Of a DNA stretch of 40,271 bases, positions 8,735-15,336 are shown piece by piece. Made by a program: the position numbers and the translations under genes. Every line of letters starts with the position of its first letter. Within the stretch, counting starts at the first letter, position 1. Below the pieces are notes generated by a model. It made no database searches and had not been told where the DNA came from. It saw nothing but the letters and a program-made list of their open reading frames with translations. Source of the stretch: Erysipelotrichaceae bacterium. Lineage in GTDB: Bacteria; Bacillota_I; Bacilli_A; Erysipelotrichales; Erysipelotrichaceae. The DNA lies in assembly GCA_013334325.1 (NCBI GenBank), contig JAAXXT010000022.1:1-40271 (forward strand). The letters run 5' to 3'.

Positions 8735-8782
8735 TTGACAAACTGAAAAATATATGCAAAAATGCACCCGTTATCAAGGAGG
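8735..8782 (+). promoter_or_regulatory. Possible promoter and strong RBS of the 3D-domain lipoprotein
   Basis: A perfect -35 TTGACA (8735-8740) is followed after 17 bases by a poor -10, AAAAAT (8758-8763). AAGGAGG at 8776-8782 is a very strong ribosome site six bases before TTG at 8789, and this fixes TTG as the start. Confidence 0.4.
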
Positions 8783-8788
8783 AATTGT

Positions 8789-9631
8789 TTGAACCCTTTG
8801 AAAAAATTTCTTGGATTAGGCGTATTGATCATCTTAACTGCATGCTCAACGCAAGAGTCCATGAACATCGTGTTGCAACAGTCGCAAGAAAATGCATTTC
8901 TTAGCAACAGCAATACGATACCTTACAGGATTGTTGAGGTTACTGAATACGAATTCGTAGCCAATCAAACCGTAGTCGAACTGCCTTACGCTTCCAGTAG
9001 GTCAGGTTATACATGGTTAGTTTCGAAAGTGAGCTCAGGTAGCCCAGCGCAACTCGCAGTCACTTATCGAATAACCTATGATCTAGAAGGCAATGTCCTA
9101 TCTAGAGTCAAAATCCCAGGAATGGAAACTTTAATCAAGGCTATTCCTGCGACGTATCAGTATGGATCTAAAGTCGTGAAAGGTTCCTACTTCTATGCTA
9201 GGGCAATCTCCCGTTATGGGTTCGATTGTGTTGGTTGTGAAGCACCTGGAGCCACAACAGCCACCATGGCCAGTATGTTGAAAGTCTCAGCGACTGCTGT
9301 TAGACAAAGCGATGGCACATGGAAAGATGGGATTACTTATGATGGTTACTTTTTGGTGGCAGCTGATAAAGCACTCCCCTTATGTACAGTAATTGAAATC
9401 TCAAATCATCATTTCTCAGGAAGCGGTATTATTGAAGGCAAGCCCTTCAAAGCACTGGTTGCTGATCGAGGTAGTGCGATAACCACTAATCGATTAGACT
9501 TCTTCATTGGGACTGAAAGTTATTTGGATACCGTCATCCACAATGCCAAATCTGCTGGCACTAAGATTACGGTCGTAGCATTCTTGAAGTGGAAGCGAAA
9601 CAGTTTAGGTCAAATGACCTGTGTAAAGTAA
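8789..9631 (+). CDS. G5/3D-domain lipoprotein, YabE-like wall-active protein
   Basis: Reading from TTG at 8789 (AAGGAGG six bases upstream) gives 281 residues beginning with a lipoprotein signal: positive residues, a hydrophobic stretch and the lipobox LTAC. Residues about 40-105 resemble a G5 domain. The C-terminal part resembles the 3D double-psi barrel named for three aspartates: AADKALP, LVADRGSAITTNRLDFFIGT. Such proteins (YabE, stationary-phase survival factors) are thought to cleave peptidoglycan glycan strands. The place between tatD and rnmV is exactly that of Bacillus yabE, which supports orthology. Domain boundaries are estimated by eye. Confidence 0.78.
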   Translation: MNPLKKFLGLGVLIILTACSTQESMNIVLQQSQENAFLSNSNTIPYRIVEVTEYEFVANQTVVELPYASSRSGYTWLVSKVSSGSPAQLAVTYRITYDLEGNVLSRVKIPGMETLIKAIPATYQYGSKVVKGSYFYARAISRYGFDCVGCEAPGATTATMASMLKVSATAVRQSDGTWKDGITYDGYFLVAADKALPLCTVIEISNHHFSGSGIIEGKPFKALVADRGSAITTNRLDFFIGTESYLDTVIHNAKSAGTKITVVAFLKWKRNSLGQMTCVK

Positions 9632-9715: not shown

Positions 9716-10891
9716 ATGATCCAAGATTATGAAGCTTTGGTTAAACTAGGACTATATCCTTCTAAGAAAGAATGGTTCTCTAAATATGGAAAACATGGGA
9801 TCGATTATGTACCCTTGCTTAATCATAAGAAAAATACATTAACTAAGATTCCTCTTAAGACAAAAGAAGGATCTTTGTATTTTAATAAGGCTTATATTTC
9901 ATCTATCCTTAATGACTATTATTCAAGTCAATCCTTAGGTCTAGAATCTGAGCTTCATTTTACTCAAGTCTTTGAAGAGATCCTCATTTTTAGTGAAGTA
10001 GAAGGCACTTTAGAAATCGAAGGTATCAAGACATCCAAGAAGAAGATCGAAGATATCCTAAAGAAAGAAAACTTGACCCCTGATGAACAAGGGGTCTTCA
10101 ATATGAGAAAGGGTTTAGATTATATCTCTACTCATGAGATCACAGAGAAACATCTTCATGAATTGTATGAGATCTTATCCATGAACTGTCTCAGTGATGA
10201 ACAGAAACTAGAGGAAGGATATTATCGAAAGAAAGAAGTTGAAATCCTAGATCGATATGGACAAGTCAGCGATCGAGGCGTAGAAGCACTTTATCTAGAA
10301 CCTTGGATGAAGGAATTTATCGAGTTTATCCAAATCAATATGAGCTCCTTGAATCCATTGACCTATTTGATGCCTCATCTTATCCATTACTATATGATCC
10401 TACTTCATCCTTATTATGACTTTAATGGGAGAATGGGAAGGATCTTGGCTGTATGGTATATCTTGAAGTGTCCTTATATAAAGGATAAGATGCCTATCTT
10501 TTCTGAAGCCATTAACTATAATTCCAAAACGAAAGCTTTGTATTATAAGGCCATCGAGAACAGTAGGGAAGATGAGAATGATCTTACGTTTTTCTTTGAG
10601 ACGATGTTTGTCTTAGGACAGACCTTTATCACGGTCTATCTTAAATTAGATGAGATCGAGACCCAATCACGAAGAAGAGCTAAACCTTTGACTCAAAATG
10701 AGATCAATACTTTAAAATCTATCCTTTTATATATTAAAGACAAGACCTTCTTTACTTGGGAAGATGTATCCTTTGTGGATAAACAACAATTCTCTAAACA
10801 ATACTACTTAAGATTACTGAACTCTATGACAGAGAAAGAAGTGCTTACTAAAACAATGAGTGGAAAAACAGCACAATATCAACTTCATTGA
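9716..10891 (+). CDS. Fic-domain AMP-transferase-like protein with inhibitory motif
   Basis: A 391-residue Fic protein. The catalytic loop HPYYDFNGRMGR (about residues 230-241) matches HxFx(D/E)xNGRxxR, with the active histidine and both arginines kept. TLEIEG near residue 100 fits the inhibitory helix (S/T)xxxE(G/N), placed N-terminal, as in class II Fic enzymes that hold themselves inactive. The C-terminal 70 residues look like a winged helix. Fic enzymes usually transfer AMP to hydroxyl side chains of target proteins; the target here is unknown. The start follows GAGGTG by four bases. It is the first gene of the accessory stretch and stands alone. Confidence 0.9.
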   Translation: MIQDYEALVKLGLYPSKKEWFSKYGKHGIDYVPLLNHKKNTLTKIPLKTKEGSLYFNKAYISSILNDYYSSQSLGLESELHFTQVFEEILIFSEVEGTLEIEGIKTSKKKIEDILKKENLTPDEQGVFNMRKGLDYISTHEITEKHLHELYEILSMNCLSDEQKLEEGYYRKKEVEILDRYGQVSDRGVEALYLEPWMKEFIEFIQINMSSLNPLTYLMPHLIHYYMILLHPYYDFNGRMGRILAVWYILKCPYIKDKMPIFSEAINYNSKTKALYYKAIENSREDENDLTFFFETMFVLGQTFITVYLKLDEIETQSRRRAKPLTQNEINTLKSILLYIKDKTFFTWEDVSFVDKQQFSKQYYLRLLNSMTEKEVLTKTMSGKTAQYQLH

Positions 10892-10917: not shown

Positions 10918-10957
10918 TTGACATACATAGAATACCGAGGTATATTATACCTAGGAG
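10918..10957 (+). promoter_or_regulatory. PadR operon promoter with overlapping dyads
   Basis: TTGACA (10918-10923), a 17-base spacer and TATATT (10941-10946) form a near-ideal promoter. Two dyads overlap it: ATACC-GA-GGTAT (10932-10943) and AGGTATA-T-TATACCT (10938-10952). A more distant ATACAT...ATGTAT pair flanks them (10923-10928 and 10962-10967). AGGAG at 10953-10957 is the ribosome site. Autorepression by the PadR product is the natural reading. Confidence 0.72.
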
Positions 10958-10961
10958 ACCG

Positions 10962-11306
10962 ATGTATATGGACAAAAACTATATTGGAGGAAGTTCTTAC
11001 TTACTAGTTCTGAGTTTAATCAATCGTAAAGATATGTATGGGTATGAAATCATAAAGGAACTTGAACTTCTTTCTGATGATGCTTTTAAATTTAAAGAAG
11101 GGACTTTATATCCGATCCTACATAAATTTGAAAACTCAGGTTGGATAGAATCCTATTCTAAATTTTCGGATAGCGGTAAAGAACGCAAGTACTATCACAT
11201 CACCAAAACTGGCATACAGCAATTGGTGCAAGAACAAGAACAATGGGATCTTTTTAAAGATTCTGTGATGAAAGTACTCAACGGAAACCGCTATGTCCTC
11301 GATTAA
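10962..11306 (+). CDS. PadR-family transcriptional regulator
   Basis: A 114-residue winged-helix repressor of the PadR type. The core LLVLSLINRKDMYGYEIIKEL, EGTLYPILHKFENSGWI and GKERKYYHITKTG blocks are diagnostic. PadR proteins commonly repress their own operon and release DNA on binding a ligand or a partner. Two starts are possible, ATG 10962 and ATG 10968 (MDKNYIGG); the second gives a more typical N-terminus and about 10 bases to AGGAG, the first leaves only four. It overlaps the next gene by 14 bases, so the two are translationally coupled. Confidence 0.93.
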   Translation: MYMDKNYIGGSSYLLVLSLINRKDMYGYEIIKELELLSDDAFKFKEGTLYPILHKFENSGWIESYSKFSDSGKERKYYHITKTGIQQLVQEQEQWDLFKDSVMKVLNGNRYVLD

Positions 11307-12033
11307 GGAAAACTATCTCAAGCAGATATTAAATGAGATCCATTTTCCTTTTGATCGGCCTCTCATTAGAAAAGAACTTGTAGAACATTTGGATGAATCC
11401 ATCGAATACTATACTGGATCAACTGTTTCTCTAGAAGAAGCAGAAAGCTTAGCGATCCATGATTTTGGGGAACCAAAAGAAATCGGCAAACTATTAAATA
11501 AAGTTCATAAACCTTTCTTAGGTTGGATATGGATCTTATCAAAATATGGATTGGTTGTCATTATGATTTTAACAGTCATTGCTTCTACTCCTCGTTTCTT
11601 TGAAGCTTTGGAACAAGCGCAAGAAAGTGCACCTCCAACTGAAGCAACAGAGATTATTTTACAAGCATTGTCATATGGCACCTCGGAGGTAGTCGTTGAT
11701 AAAATTGTAGATCAAAGATTTGAGCTTAAAGATGGAGATCTCGTTTTTGAACGAATGATCATTCTTAAAGAGGGAGTCTTGATTCTAATGGTTCAGCAAG
11801 TTGATCATTTTGATCCATTTGGCATTAAGAAGACCATCTATCCTTTACAAAGACAAGCTTGTCTTCAATTAGGTGGAGTTGATTATCATTTTGAAGCAGA
11901 GCAAACAAGCAACTATAAAGGGTTCATTGTTTTGATCGCAAAAGATATTCCAACAGTTTCAAATGAATACTCCATAGTGTTTAATGGTTATTCTGAGAAT
12001 TTTAAATTAGAAGTGGTAGTTGATCTCCCATGA
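11293..12033 (+). CDS. HAAS (DUF1700)-like membrane-anchored protein
   Basis: A 246-residue protein. Residues about 1-75 are helical with ELVEHLDESIEYY and EEAESLAIHDFGEPKEIGK, the pattern of HAAS/permease-prefix domains that regularly sit beside PadR regulators. One transmembrane helix follows (about 80-100), then about 145 residues predicted outside the cell, rich in beta-forming sequence. The layout suggests a cytoplasmic sensor linked to an external domain. It overlaps padR by 14 bases and the next gene by ATGA. The external domain is not recognised. Confidence 0.7.
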   Translation: MSSIKENYLKQILNEIHFPFDRPLIRKELVEHLDESIEYYTGSTVSLEEAESLAIHDFGEPKEIGKLLNKVHKPFLGWIWILSKYGLVVIMILTVIASTPRFFEALEQAQESAPPTEATEIILQALSYGTSEVVVDKIVDQRFELKDGDLVFERMIILKEGVLILMVQQVDHFDPFGIKKTIYPLQRQACLQLGGVDYHFEAEQTSNYKGFIVLIAKDIPTVSNEYSIVFNGYSENFKLEVVVDLP

Positions 12034-12812
12034 AAAAACGAGTTAGACACATTGTTGCTTATATTGTTGGGATACTCATTTTGATTTCATATTTATTTTA
12101 TTTCAATGGATACAGATTGTCCGCTGAATCACTCAATTCCGATTTAGATAAAAGTCTTCACTATAAACCTTCTATCATTGTTCACCGTGAATCCATAGGA
12201 GGTAGAACCCTTATTGTTTCACAAAGTAATAATTGGTTGATCTGTCGTTCATATAAAAGCACATTATCATTTTTGTGGAAGGATGAAGGTTTAACACTAG
12301 GACCAATCGACTTAGACATGGAACTTAAGGATAAGAAATACAGTGAAGTTATGGATGAACTTGTCCAGTCCTGTAGTTGGTTAGCAGAGGAAACTGTCAT
12401 TATGGATAAAACATATAGAATACTGGATCGTAATAAGACACAGTTTATTGAAGGTGAACAAAGTGTTCAGATGAATCTGACACAAGAAGATAGAAGGACA
12501 GTCGTTAGAGATGGGAGTTTCTTTATCGATCAATCGTTTTCCAACAATGATCTAACCATTCACTTCTTTTATACAAAGACCGGGATCGCTAAGTCAATCG
12601 AGTTTGAGTTTGATGAAAGTGTCTTGGAAGAATCTATCATATCAGCATTTAATTATACAACCAGTAATCAGCTTGATGATTGGACCTTCTCGAGACTAAC
12701 CATCACAAAAGCTTTAGAGAATTACAAATCTAGTGGACTTTGGGATACAAAAGATGGGTCTGTTGTTATATCGTCCACAACAGGAAAGATCAGTATTGAT
12801 TTTATTGAGTAA
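12030..12812 (+). CDS. Membrane-anchored protein of unknown function
   Basis: A 260-residue protein with a basic N-terminus and one hydrophobic helix (about residues 7-26), leaving about 230 residues outside the membrane. There is no lipobox cysteine, so it is anchored by the helix or an uncleaved signal. The ATG overlaps the stop of the HAAS-like gene by four bases, making it the third gene of the PadR operon. I do not recognise the exported part. It does not resemble the lipoproteins that follow. Confidence 0.6.
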   Translation: MKKRVRHIVAYIVGILILISYLFYFNGYRLSAESLNSDLDKSLHYKPSIIVHRESIGGRTLIVSQSNNWLICRSYKSTLSFLWKDEGLTLGPIDLDMELKDKKYSEVMDELVQSCSWLAEETVIMDKTYRILDRNKTQFIEGEQSVQMNLTQEDRRTVVRDGSFFIDQSFSNNDLTIHFFYTKTGIAKSIEFEFDESVLEESIISAFNYTTSNQLDDWTFSRLTITKALENYKSSGLWDTKDGSVVISSTTGKISIDFIE

Positions 12813-12850: not shown

Positions 12851-13834
12851 ATGAAAAAAACAGTATTAATGATAAGTATACTAATAATGTCAATTATGAC
12901 ACTTGGTGGATGTAGTTCATCTAACATAACCAATCAACGTTTAAAACAAGACATCTTAGACATCAAAGAACTTGCCTTGATTAGTAGTGTTAAAGAGATG
13001 AGCATTATCACTAAAACCGAAAGTGATACATCACTCGAATATAAATTGAGCACTACGCTAGAATCTTATAATTACAGTGCGACAGCGGATATTACTCTTC
13101 ACTATTTGAAAAATGCTGGAGTTTGGGACTTATCTGATCATCAAGTGGATATCGTTAGTATAAGTGCAAAGAACGACCCATCAGTATCAGTAGCTGTTAC
13201 AAAAATTATTGCTAATGTAAGCAATGAACTTCTTAACCATCCTAATTTGCTTGGGGTTAATCAAACATATATCTTACTTTCCTCGACAGGTTCTAAAGAA
13301 TCTGGTCTGATGAGTTTGGTGATAGGGGAAGTATTTGAAGATGACTACATGACAATCGATGTCAAATATATGGTAGATGCAGTGTATGATTTCCAAACAG
13401 GTTGGAACTTTACACTAACAGATTGGGTTTATACGGAAAATGTGAGGTGGTCAGGTACTTACGATCTCACATGGACACGATTTGAACCACAATTTCCTGG
13501 CTTATCAACTAACTTATACTTTTCGGTCGGTGATAAAATTCAAGATATATATATAAGCGGTGAATTGATACGTGTAATACGTATGGATAAAACGGAAATC
13601 ATTAGTAATACACTTCGTGTACAATATCACTTTAAAGGAAAGGATTATGACTTGATTCCAACCGTTGACAATTCACCAACAACTAGTTTGACTATTGTCT
13701 TTGACAACAATCCAAATGAGTCTTTTATGATTTTCAATTATTATACCCGCCCCCGCGACTACACAGATCCTAACTACCGACCTTTTGATTGTTATGCGCC
13801 TCATGAGATGTATGGTACTTTAGTACATCGATAA
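12851..13834 (+). CDS. Lipoprotein of unknown family, tandem copy 1
   Basis: A 327-residue lipoprotein: signal MKKTVLMISILIMSIMTLGGC with lipobox LGGC. The mature part has a first domain with KTESDTSLEYKLSTTLE and ADITLHY, and a second with SGTYDLTWT, VGDKIQDIYISG and a RMDKTEI loop. The next gene shares all of these blocks, so they are paralogues, and the leader TCAGAAAGAAGAAGAT just before ATG is also shared. No catalytic motif is evident. It lies 38 bases after the PadR operon and may be cotranscribed. Base composition is more AT-rich than in the core genes. Confidence 0.7.
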   Translation: MKKTVLMISILIMSIMTLGGCSSSNITNQRLKQDILDIKELALISSVKEMSIITKTESDTSLEYKLSTTLESYNYSATADITLHYLKNAGVWDLSDHQVDIVSISAKNDPSVSVAVTKIIANVSNELLNHPNLLGVNQTYILLSSTGSKESGLMSLVIGEVFEDDYMTIDVKYMVDAVYDFQTGWNFTLTDWVYTENVRWSGTYDLTWTRFEPQFPGLSTNLYFSVGDKIQDIYISGELIRVIRMDKTEIISNTLRVQYHFKGKDYDLIPTVDNSPTTSLTIVFDNNPNESFMIFNYYTRPRDYTDPNYRPFDCYAPHEMYGTLVHR

Positions 13835-13947
13835 TAAAAGGTACATGACTAAAATCCTAGTAGATTATGGTTTTAAAGTAACAACCATCTAACCATCAGA
13901 GAGTTGTGGTTTCGAGATTATTATTAACATCTCAGAAAGAGAAAGAT

Positions 13948-14919
13948 ATGAGGAAAATACTTCTTATTGTAAGTTTAATGATGATTGCTTTGAGTTTAAA
14001 TGCTTGTAAGTCTTCTGCGATTAGTAATCAACAATTAATTACTGATATATTATTAATCCCTAAACTATATCCAATGGATGAAATTAAAGATTTTTCAATC
14101 ATTGAAAAAACTGAAACTGATTCTGAAATTAGTTATAAAATAAGTGCCACGTTAATTTCGGAGCACATGGAAATAACGACTGATATTTCCATGAAATATA
14201 TATTTTTCGAAAATAAGTGGAAAATGAATCATAGTTCGGTAAATATTGTAAATATTCTTGCTTTTGATCTACCAAGCATTGATAAAGCGGTAGAGTCAAT
14301 TCCCGATTATTTTTATTTAGTTTCTCATACGCTAAGTCTCTACTATCTACATGGACCAGTTACTCTAGATTCAATGGAAGATGATTTGGCTCATGGGAAA
14401 GCTATTCTTAACATACGCAGTGGTTTTACAGATGAATATTTTATGAGCCAAATAGAGTTTAGAATTGAAGCGATTTATGATTATGAAGATGGGTGGGAAT
14501 ATCGTCTTGTAGATTATTCTTCAATAGAGACAATGAAATGGGATGGAACATACAAAATTTTGTGGACTGAAAAAGAGCCTTCAGGAATGATTCCTAAAAA
14601 TCCTTATTTTGAGGTAGGAAATGAAATTCAAAACATTATGATTAGTGGGTTTAAGAGTCGACAAACACGGATGGATGGAACTGAAGAGATTACTAATACG
14701 ATTGAAGTGAAAATTGAGATCAATGATACTAAATATAATCTCCAGGGTTATTCATATGAAACTAACTGGCATACCAATGAATTCGTGTTTAAATTTGAAG
14801 AGGGATATGGAGGAGAAATATCATTACGATACAAACCTAAATATGACACTTTACCAACCAGATTTATTGCTTATTCAGATGCAATATTTGGTGAACTGAT
14901 TTCAAAATCAACTCAATGA
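13948..14919 (+). CDS. Lipoprotein of unknown family, tandem copy 2
   Basis: Paralogue of the preceding gene. ATG at 13948 gives a clean lipoprotein signal (MRKILLIVSLMMIALSLNAC), whereas the longer frame from 13906 adds an unlikely hydrophilic extension. The product is 323 residues. Matching blocks include EKTETDSEISYKISATL, the ITTDISMKY strand, WDGTYKILWTE, VGNEIQNIMISG and RMDGTEEITNT. The AAAGAGAAAGAT before the start mirrors copy 1. It is strongly AT-rich with ATT/ATA isoleucine codons, unlike the core genes. The function is unknown; surface exposure is predicted. Confidence 0.68.
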   Translation: MRKILLIVSLMMIALSLNACKSSAISNQQLITDILLIPKLYPMDEIKDFSIIEKTETDSEISYKISATLISEHMEITTDISMKYIFFENKWKMNHSSVNIVNILAFDLPSIDKAVESIPDYFYLVSHTLSLYYLHGPVTLDSMEDDLAHGKAILNIRSGFTDEYFMSQIEFRIEAIYDYEDGWEYRLVDYSSIETMKWDGTYKILWTEKEPSGMIPKNPYFEVGNEIQNIMISGFKSRQTRMDGTEEITNTIEVKIEINDTKYNLQGYSYETNWHTNEFVFKFEEGYGGEISLRYKPKYDTLPTRFIAYSDAIFGELISKSTQ

Positions 14920-15036
14920 TTCGTAAAATAGCTATGTTTTGAATATGAAGTATCTTAATCAACAGTGATAAACTACAAGATATACTTACTCTTTATCAAT
15001 ATAGATAGGATTATAAGTTGTCCAGAAAGAAAATTT

Positions 15037-15336
15037 TTGCGGAAAATTATTATTAATTATATAGGCTTACTACTATTCGTTGTTTTATTGAGTGCTTGTA
15101 GTAGCGGAATCAGTAATAAATGTCTTGAAGAAGATATCTTAACTTTACCTTGCGTTTACATAATCAATGAAGTCATTGATGTAGTGATTATCGAAAAAAC
15201 AGAAAACTCCACTCACATTGACTATAAACTCAATACGACCTTGAATGCCTACGAATGTACGATTACAGCAGATATTACATTGCACTATACCTTATTTGGA
15301 TGGTGTATTGACGAAGTTACCCTAATCAAAAACTAA
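15037..15336 (+). pseudogene. Truncated third lipoprotein paralogue
   Basis: From TTG at 15037 the frame encodes about 99 residues: a signal with lipobox LSAC, then EKTENSTHIDYKLNTTL and ADITLHY, which line up with the N-terminal domain of the two preceding lipoproteins. The whole second domain is missing, and ATG has become TTG in the otherwise conserved leader (CAGAAAGAAAAT). A GTG at 14965 extends the frame, but the added residues are not signal-like. It is most likely a decaying remnant of a third tandem copy, though a short secreted product is possible. Confidence 0.6.

Follow-up and report, generated by a model that had tools for sequence, protein, structure and literature searches.

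Pairs of a PadR repressor and a HAAS membrane protein have been proposed as an alternative to two-component systems (mSystems 2024, PMC11237479), and the published model has HAAS relay to PadR a signal from the membrane or from inside the cell (PMC11237479). The proposal was built on domain and gene-neighbourhood analysis, and a tractable test case has so far been missing. In Listeria, the lltR-lmo0600-lmo0601 operon is strongly auto-repressed (PMC6624303); in Clostridioides difficile, the PadR protein cdPadR1 binds two inverted-repeat sites of its own promoter in vitro (PMC5050560); and in Bacillus cereus, PadR binds the shared promoter region of BC4206-BC4207, which a membrane-active bacteriocin induces (PMC3506622).

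The locus described here lies in a 40,271-nucleotide stretch of DNA from an Erysipelotrichaceae bacterium (contig JAAXXT010000022.1; hereafter the window), where three genes at positions 10968-12812 form an operon: one for a PadR regulator, one for a HAAS protein and one for a second external protein, likewise anchored. The original prediction, made from the sequence alone, had described this gene set, its overlaps of 14 and 4 bases and a near-consensus promoter, all of which are borne out: the overlaps are exact (14 bases between padR and the HAAS gene, 4 bases between the HAAS gene and the second gene), and the sigma-70-type promoter TTGACA-17-TATATT (10918-10946, forward strand) agrees with 11 of 12 consensus positions and is the best of 26 in an 8-kb stretch. 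The analysis supports the view that the three genes form one unit and that the dyads noted in their promoter are real regulatory-looking sites. The description of the module as undescribed has to be withdrawn, as the PadR-HAAS dyad was published in 2024 (PMC11237479) and the PadR/HAAS/external layout of Listeria in 2019 (PMC6624303). Immediately upstream of the operon promoter the window encodes a Fic/DOC-type protein (9716-10891; PF02661 3.9e-5, barely above the cut-off), and at 8762-9631 a lipoprotein-like protein with a sub-threshold match to a 3D domain (0.00046).

On its sequence, the 112-aa regulator (10968-11306, forward strand) certainly belongs to the PadR family: this PadR-s2-type repressor matches the winged-helix PadR model PF03551 above the cut-off (E 3.2e-24), and its sequence also matches solved PadR structures. 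Judged from the sequence, its start codon is more likely at 10968 (MDKNYIGG) than at 10962, the start in the list of open reading frames, because relatives open with MDKN and an AGGAG lies 10 nt upstream. The same genome holds eight PadR genes. The central Trp of the PadR C-terminal helix, which is drug-binding in LmrR, is retained in most members, and PadR itself may therefore be the sensor. Direct sensing is the main rival to the signalling mechanism proposed below; here PadR would itself detect a cytoplasmic compound, as a one-component sensor, with the HAAS protein and its partner acting only as effectors that protect the membrane, in the manner of multidrug PadR systems. LmrR and other relatives of the PadR-s2 type do bind drugs directly via this Trp, the HAAS-type Lmo0600 is the gene with a phenotype in Listeria (PMC6624303), and B. 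cereus BC4206-BC4207 likewise joins a PadR to a membrane protein under bacteriocin induction. However, one member (in genome G007) has Phe replacing the Trp, and the HAAS domain has been reported as invariably accompanied by a PadR gene (PMC11237479), which is hard to square with an effector-only role; we regard this explanation as unlikely, if still a serious contender.

The second gene (11293-12033, forward strand) encodes a protein of 246 aa that scores under the cut-off of the Pfam HAAS model (0.0066) and matches NCBIfam perm_prefix_1 at 9.9e-7, a model that is matched by all 23 aligned HAAS members (best 3.9e-14). Its AlphaFold model (mean pLDDT 91.6) begins with a set of helices, continues with a single long helix in the membrane and ends in a beta-sandwich on the outside. 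Four predicted cytoplasmic helices (residues 4-15, 19-41, 47-58 and 61-72) fall within approximately aa 1-73 (11293-11511), the region that carries the conserved GxP motif (G59-E-P61) and an LN..H.P motif in the alignment; G59 is invariant in 23/23 aligned members and P61 is present in most. N-terminal cytoplasmic helices with a GxP motif place the protein in the HAAS superfamily. In the model, a long helix at aa 74-109 (11512-11619) holds the single transmembrane segment, and the external domain follows at aa 112-246 (11626-12030, strands within 133-242). Comparison of this external part with solved structures gave Z scores of 10.3 for 4eae (rmsd 2.8, 123 residues aligned), 9.9 for 3fbq (2.5, 106), 8.2 for 4les (3.4, 105) and 7.6 for YcdA 4r4g (3.0, 98), all of them Bacillota proteins of unknown role. 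From the model we predict an immunoglobulin-like beta-sandwich, a likeness that is one of fold only, without a sequence match, and that says nothing on the ligand.

The third gene (12030-12812, forward strand) encodes the second anchored external protein, of 260 aa, which is described here from its predicted structure and its homologues and has no match in Pfam or NCBIfam. Its model (mean pLDDT 80.1) is weaker than that of the HAAS protein and comprises an N-terminal membrane helix, an alpha plus four-strand domain at aa 29-120 and, after a linker that is poorly predicted at 123-141, an alpha+beta part at aa 151-260. The first domain resembles cystatin/PepSY-like folds at a best Z of 5.9, with all scores below 8 and the likeness hence weak (CD1622 4exr 5.6, YpeB 5boi 5.3, YpmB 2gu3 4.4); matches at Z 4-6 were taken as under the level of trust. 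The DUF4097 Toastrack domain that marks the lltR type gave no match to the third protein or to any of 22 aligned members. Neither external part could be assigned to a credible family by sequence searches of Pfam, NCBIfam and the PDB, and Foldseek alone returned no match for either model at E <= 0.001. Scattered weak single-member matches of the external parts to Imm9, DUF5643 and BSAP-5i were judged to be noise. The original prediction had called these domains unrecognised, and neither of them matches a named sequence family; structure prediction adds the beta-sandwich of the HAAS part and a partner that is only weakly cystatin/PepSY-like.

When the 273 genomes of the family were searched with a profile of the HAAS protein, 18 of them, distributed over 7 of 60 genera, proved to hold relatives. 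Neither an order-wide search nor an even sample of the phylum, which comprised only 392 genomes, yielded further loci, and the phylum sample contained no additional full-length relatives. Several assemblies are incomplete, and absence from a genome is therefore weak evidence. The expectation that the genes stay together was confirmed: the second anchored gene directly follows the HAAS gene in all 22 loci with downstream sequence available, and its start lies no more than about 40 bases from the HAAS stop codon. This count leaves out the G000:C27 copy, which is cut by a contig end. The partners have in common a membrane helix at the N-terminus as well as a short signature, and their identity to the protein of the window is only 12-28%, so that adjacency is conserved far better than sequence. 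The pair lies within a padR operon in the window and in 19 of the other 21 readable loci, one of these (G252) in second position; the HAAS gene thus adjoins a stand-alone PadR gene, as in the published dyads.

Several loci vary this plan. At G252:C14 (L061 4730-7467) a single padR heads an apparent operon with two HAAS/partner pairs in succession, and at G218:C48 (L051 2054-5053) the partner is of about 1000 aa, with the anchored N-terminal domain preceding DUF5050 beta-propeller-type repeats (E 3.5e-82). The HAAS paralogue at G000:C39 (L018 6476-7709) is more distant and has an external part unlike the others; it comes with padR and the full tandem operator described below, without a partner gene. 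A possible second, 5'-truncated partner-type ORF lies downstream of the partner gene at G250:C28 (L052 465-821).

The distribution of the loci also bears on a further explanation, in which the anchored pair would shield the cell from a membrane-active peptide of a neighbour or of its own, with PadR as a simple dose control. The patchy presence (18/273 genomes), the fast change of the proteins (12-31% identity to those of the window) and the precedent of AS-48 are consistent with such an immunity device, but no bacteriocin genes were recognised by eye beside the loci read and no immunity family was matched above chance, and we consider it improbable.

The promoter had been predicted to carry two overlapping dyads. 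Both AGGTATATTATACCT and ATACCGAGGTAT are present, but they are actually the inner halves of two tandem copies of a 21-bp operator, ATACNTAG-N5-CTANGTAT. Predicted operator 1 (ATACATAG-AATAC-CGAGGTAT, 10923-10943, 1 mismatch) overlaps the -35 and -10 boxes; predicted operator 2 (ATACCTAG-GAGAC-CGATGTAT, 10947-10967, 1 mismatch), whose start lies 24 bp from that of the first, covers the ribosome-binding site and ends at the start codon. Both copies occur in every one of the 21 promoters where padR precedes HAAS-external genes, those of the C39 and C27 paralogues included, with starts 24-26 bp apart. The second site has at most 3 mismatches in 19 of the 21; at G196:C11 and G197:C9 its left half alone is intact and the right half is shifted by one base. 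Positions 4, 6, 8 and 14 are invariant in the 37 collected sites.

At the 14 fixed positions, the best site of each promoter has 0.8 mismatches on average, compared with 5.4 after shuffling. When 22 promoters (the 21 tandem-site promoters and the single-site C25 locus) were each subjected to 100 dinucleotide shuffles, no shuffle matched as well as the real sequence, a significance that is overstated because the operator was derived from the same promoters and then scanned. Independent sequence support for the predicted operator comes from padR-less copies of the pair, from the C25 locus and from a family-wide scan with the exact pattern, which occurs 12 times in 273 genomes, 11 of them at the PadR-HAAS loci studied here. 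The remaining exact site lies in G216, where the 3 kb read contained no PadR, and was taken as chance. The DNA of the loci, 235 kb in all, holds 20 sites with at most 1 mismatch, which equals the number recorded for their promoters.

In the genome of the window, C39, C40 and C25 are the only places where a site has at most 1 mismatch, and C27 carries two with 2 mismatches apiece; each of the four is a PadR-HAAS locus. Of the nine sites with at most 2 mismatches, these loci account for seven, and the other two (C22) have no such linkage; a reversed control pattern gave 32 matches per strand at 2 mismatches. The two C22 sites therefore mean nothing, and we claim no wider regulon. The PadR-HAAS loci C24 and C38 are without the site, and the operator therefore belongs to a subgroup of such loci. 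The locus at C25 (L128 1456-3218) has the lltR layout of PadR, a HAAS/DUF1129-like membrane protein and a DUF4097 Toastrack protein, with a single operator copy (1 mismatch) 56 bases upstream of padR.

The padR-less copies are the HAAS/partner pairs at G196:C29 and G197:C41, upstream of which no padR was found; each genome also holds a complete triad. The latter copy is near a contig end, with 276 bases read upstream, and so the absence of padR is displayed, over several kilobases, only by the G196 copy. Around a near-consensus promoter both pairs keep a weaker double site (2 and 3 mismatches, 24-bp spacing), which suggests that they could be controlled in trans by PadR.

The lipoprotein paralogues reported to follow the operon are indeed present at 12851-15336, but they do not belong to the conserved system. 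In favour of their being the output of the system, they lie on the same strand and start 38 bp past the third gene, with no strong terminator or promoter between, so that co-transcription is possible in this genome and read-through from the operon may occur. Elsewhere, however, the arrays are found in G001 and G002, and the family also occurs in G014, all without the operon; G003, G004 and G007, of the same genus, have the operon without such lipoproteins; and the family otherwise follows a VWA-type gene. We therefore rejected them as members of the module, a separate family outside the conserved set, and hold their role as its output to be very improbable. The family forms tandem arrays (window 12851-15336; L019 6119-8580; L112, L115), adjoined elsewhere by a VWA-type protein with 'VFILDRSGSMGG', and the third copy in the window (14965-15336) is short and looks truncated.

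We propose, as the reading that is on balance probable, that the operon regulates itself and serves transmembrane signalling of the PadR-HAAS kind. The tandem 21-bp operators would be occupied by two PadR dimers, which would thus cover the promoter between the -35 box and the start codon and keep the operon low. The HAAS protein would cross the membrane once, and its outer beta-sandwich, presumably paired with the second anchored protein, would sense or contact something at the surface. The signal would then reach the cytoplasmic HAAS helices, which would bind PadR and loosen it from the DNA, such that more of the same surface pair is produced. The regulon would be local, with extra HAAS/partner pairs elsewhere put under the same PadR through the operator they carry. 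Ligand or stress sensing is plausible for this operon, and our best guess for the signal would be a membrane-active peptide or envelope damage. The constant core of PadR, HAAS helices and operator, the variable outer domains and the constant pairing of outer proteins fit the published HAAS-PadR model (PMC11237479). More tentatively, and with rather less than even confidence, we suggest that the HAAS protein and its anchored partner may constitute a two-protein surface receptor whose signal passes through a PadR repressor, where other systems use a kinase and a response regulator, and that a stereotyped double operator may recruit extra pairs in trans.

The operon supplies the test case that the HAAS-PadR proposal has needed, as it is compact, has an operator sharply defined by comparison and sets variable outer domains on a constant inner core. 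Its natural padR-less copies predict control in trans, and it allows a direct test of whether HAAS relays membrane signals to PadR.

Comparison with the described systems places the locus among them. It shares with the published HAAS-PadR dyad (PMC11237479) a PadR gene followed by that of a membrane protein with N-terminal HAAS helices and a GxP motif; there, HAAS is fused to multi-TM, PspC, Toastrack, FtsX, FtsW/RodA or pentapeptide parts, whereas the HAAS protein here has one transmembrane segment and a predicted Ig-like outer domain, and is accompanied by a second anchored protein of its own and by a tandem operator that is conserved. The Listeria lltR-lmo0600-lmo0601 operon (PMC6624303) has the same order of PadR, HAAS/DUF1700 membrane protein and external protein and is mainly self-regulated, as we infer for the operon here; in contrast, its third gene encodes a DUF4097 Toastrack protein and Lmo0600 spans the membrane several times. 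The cdPadR1 promoter resembles the present one in its two inverted-repeat sites, one over the -35/-10 region and one near the start, but its sites are loosely spaced TACT-N11-12-AGTA motifs rather than 21-bp operators at a 24-26 bp spacing. BC4206-BC4207 also combines a PadR with a membrane protein; it comprises two genes only, and nothing here indicates that the membrane protein is the same. The PadR-HAAS principle was thus already known, while this gene set with its doubled site, across seven genera, is new.
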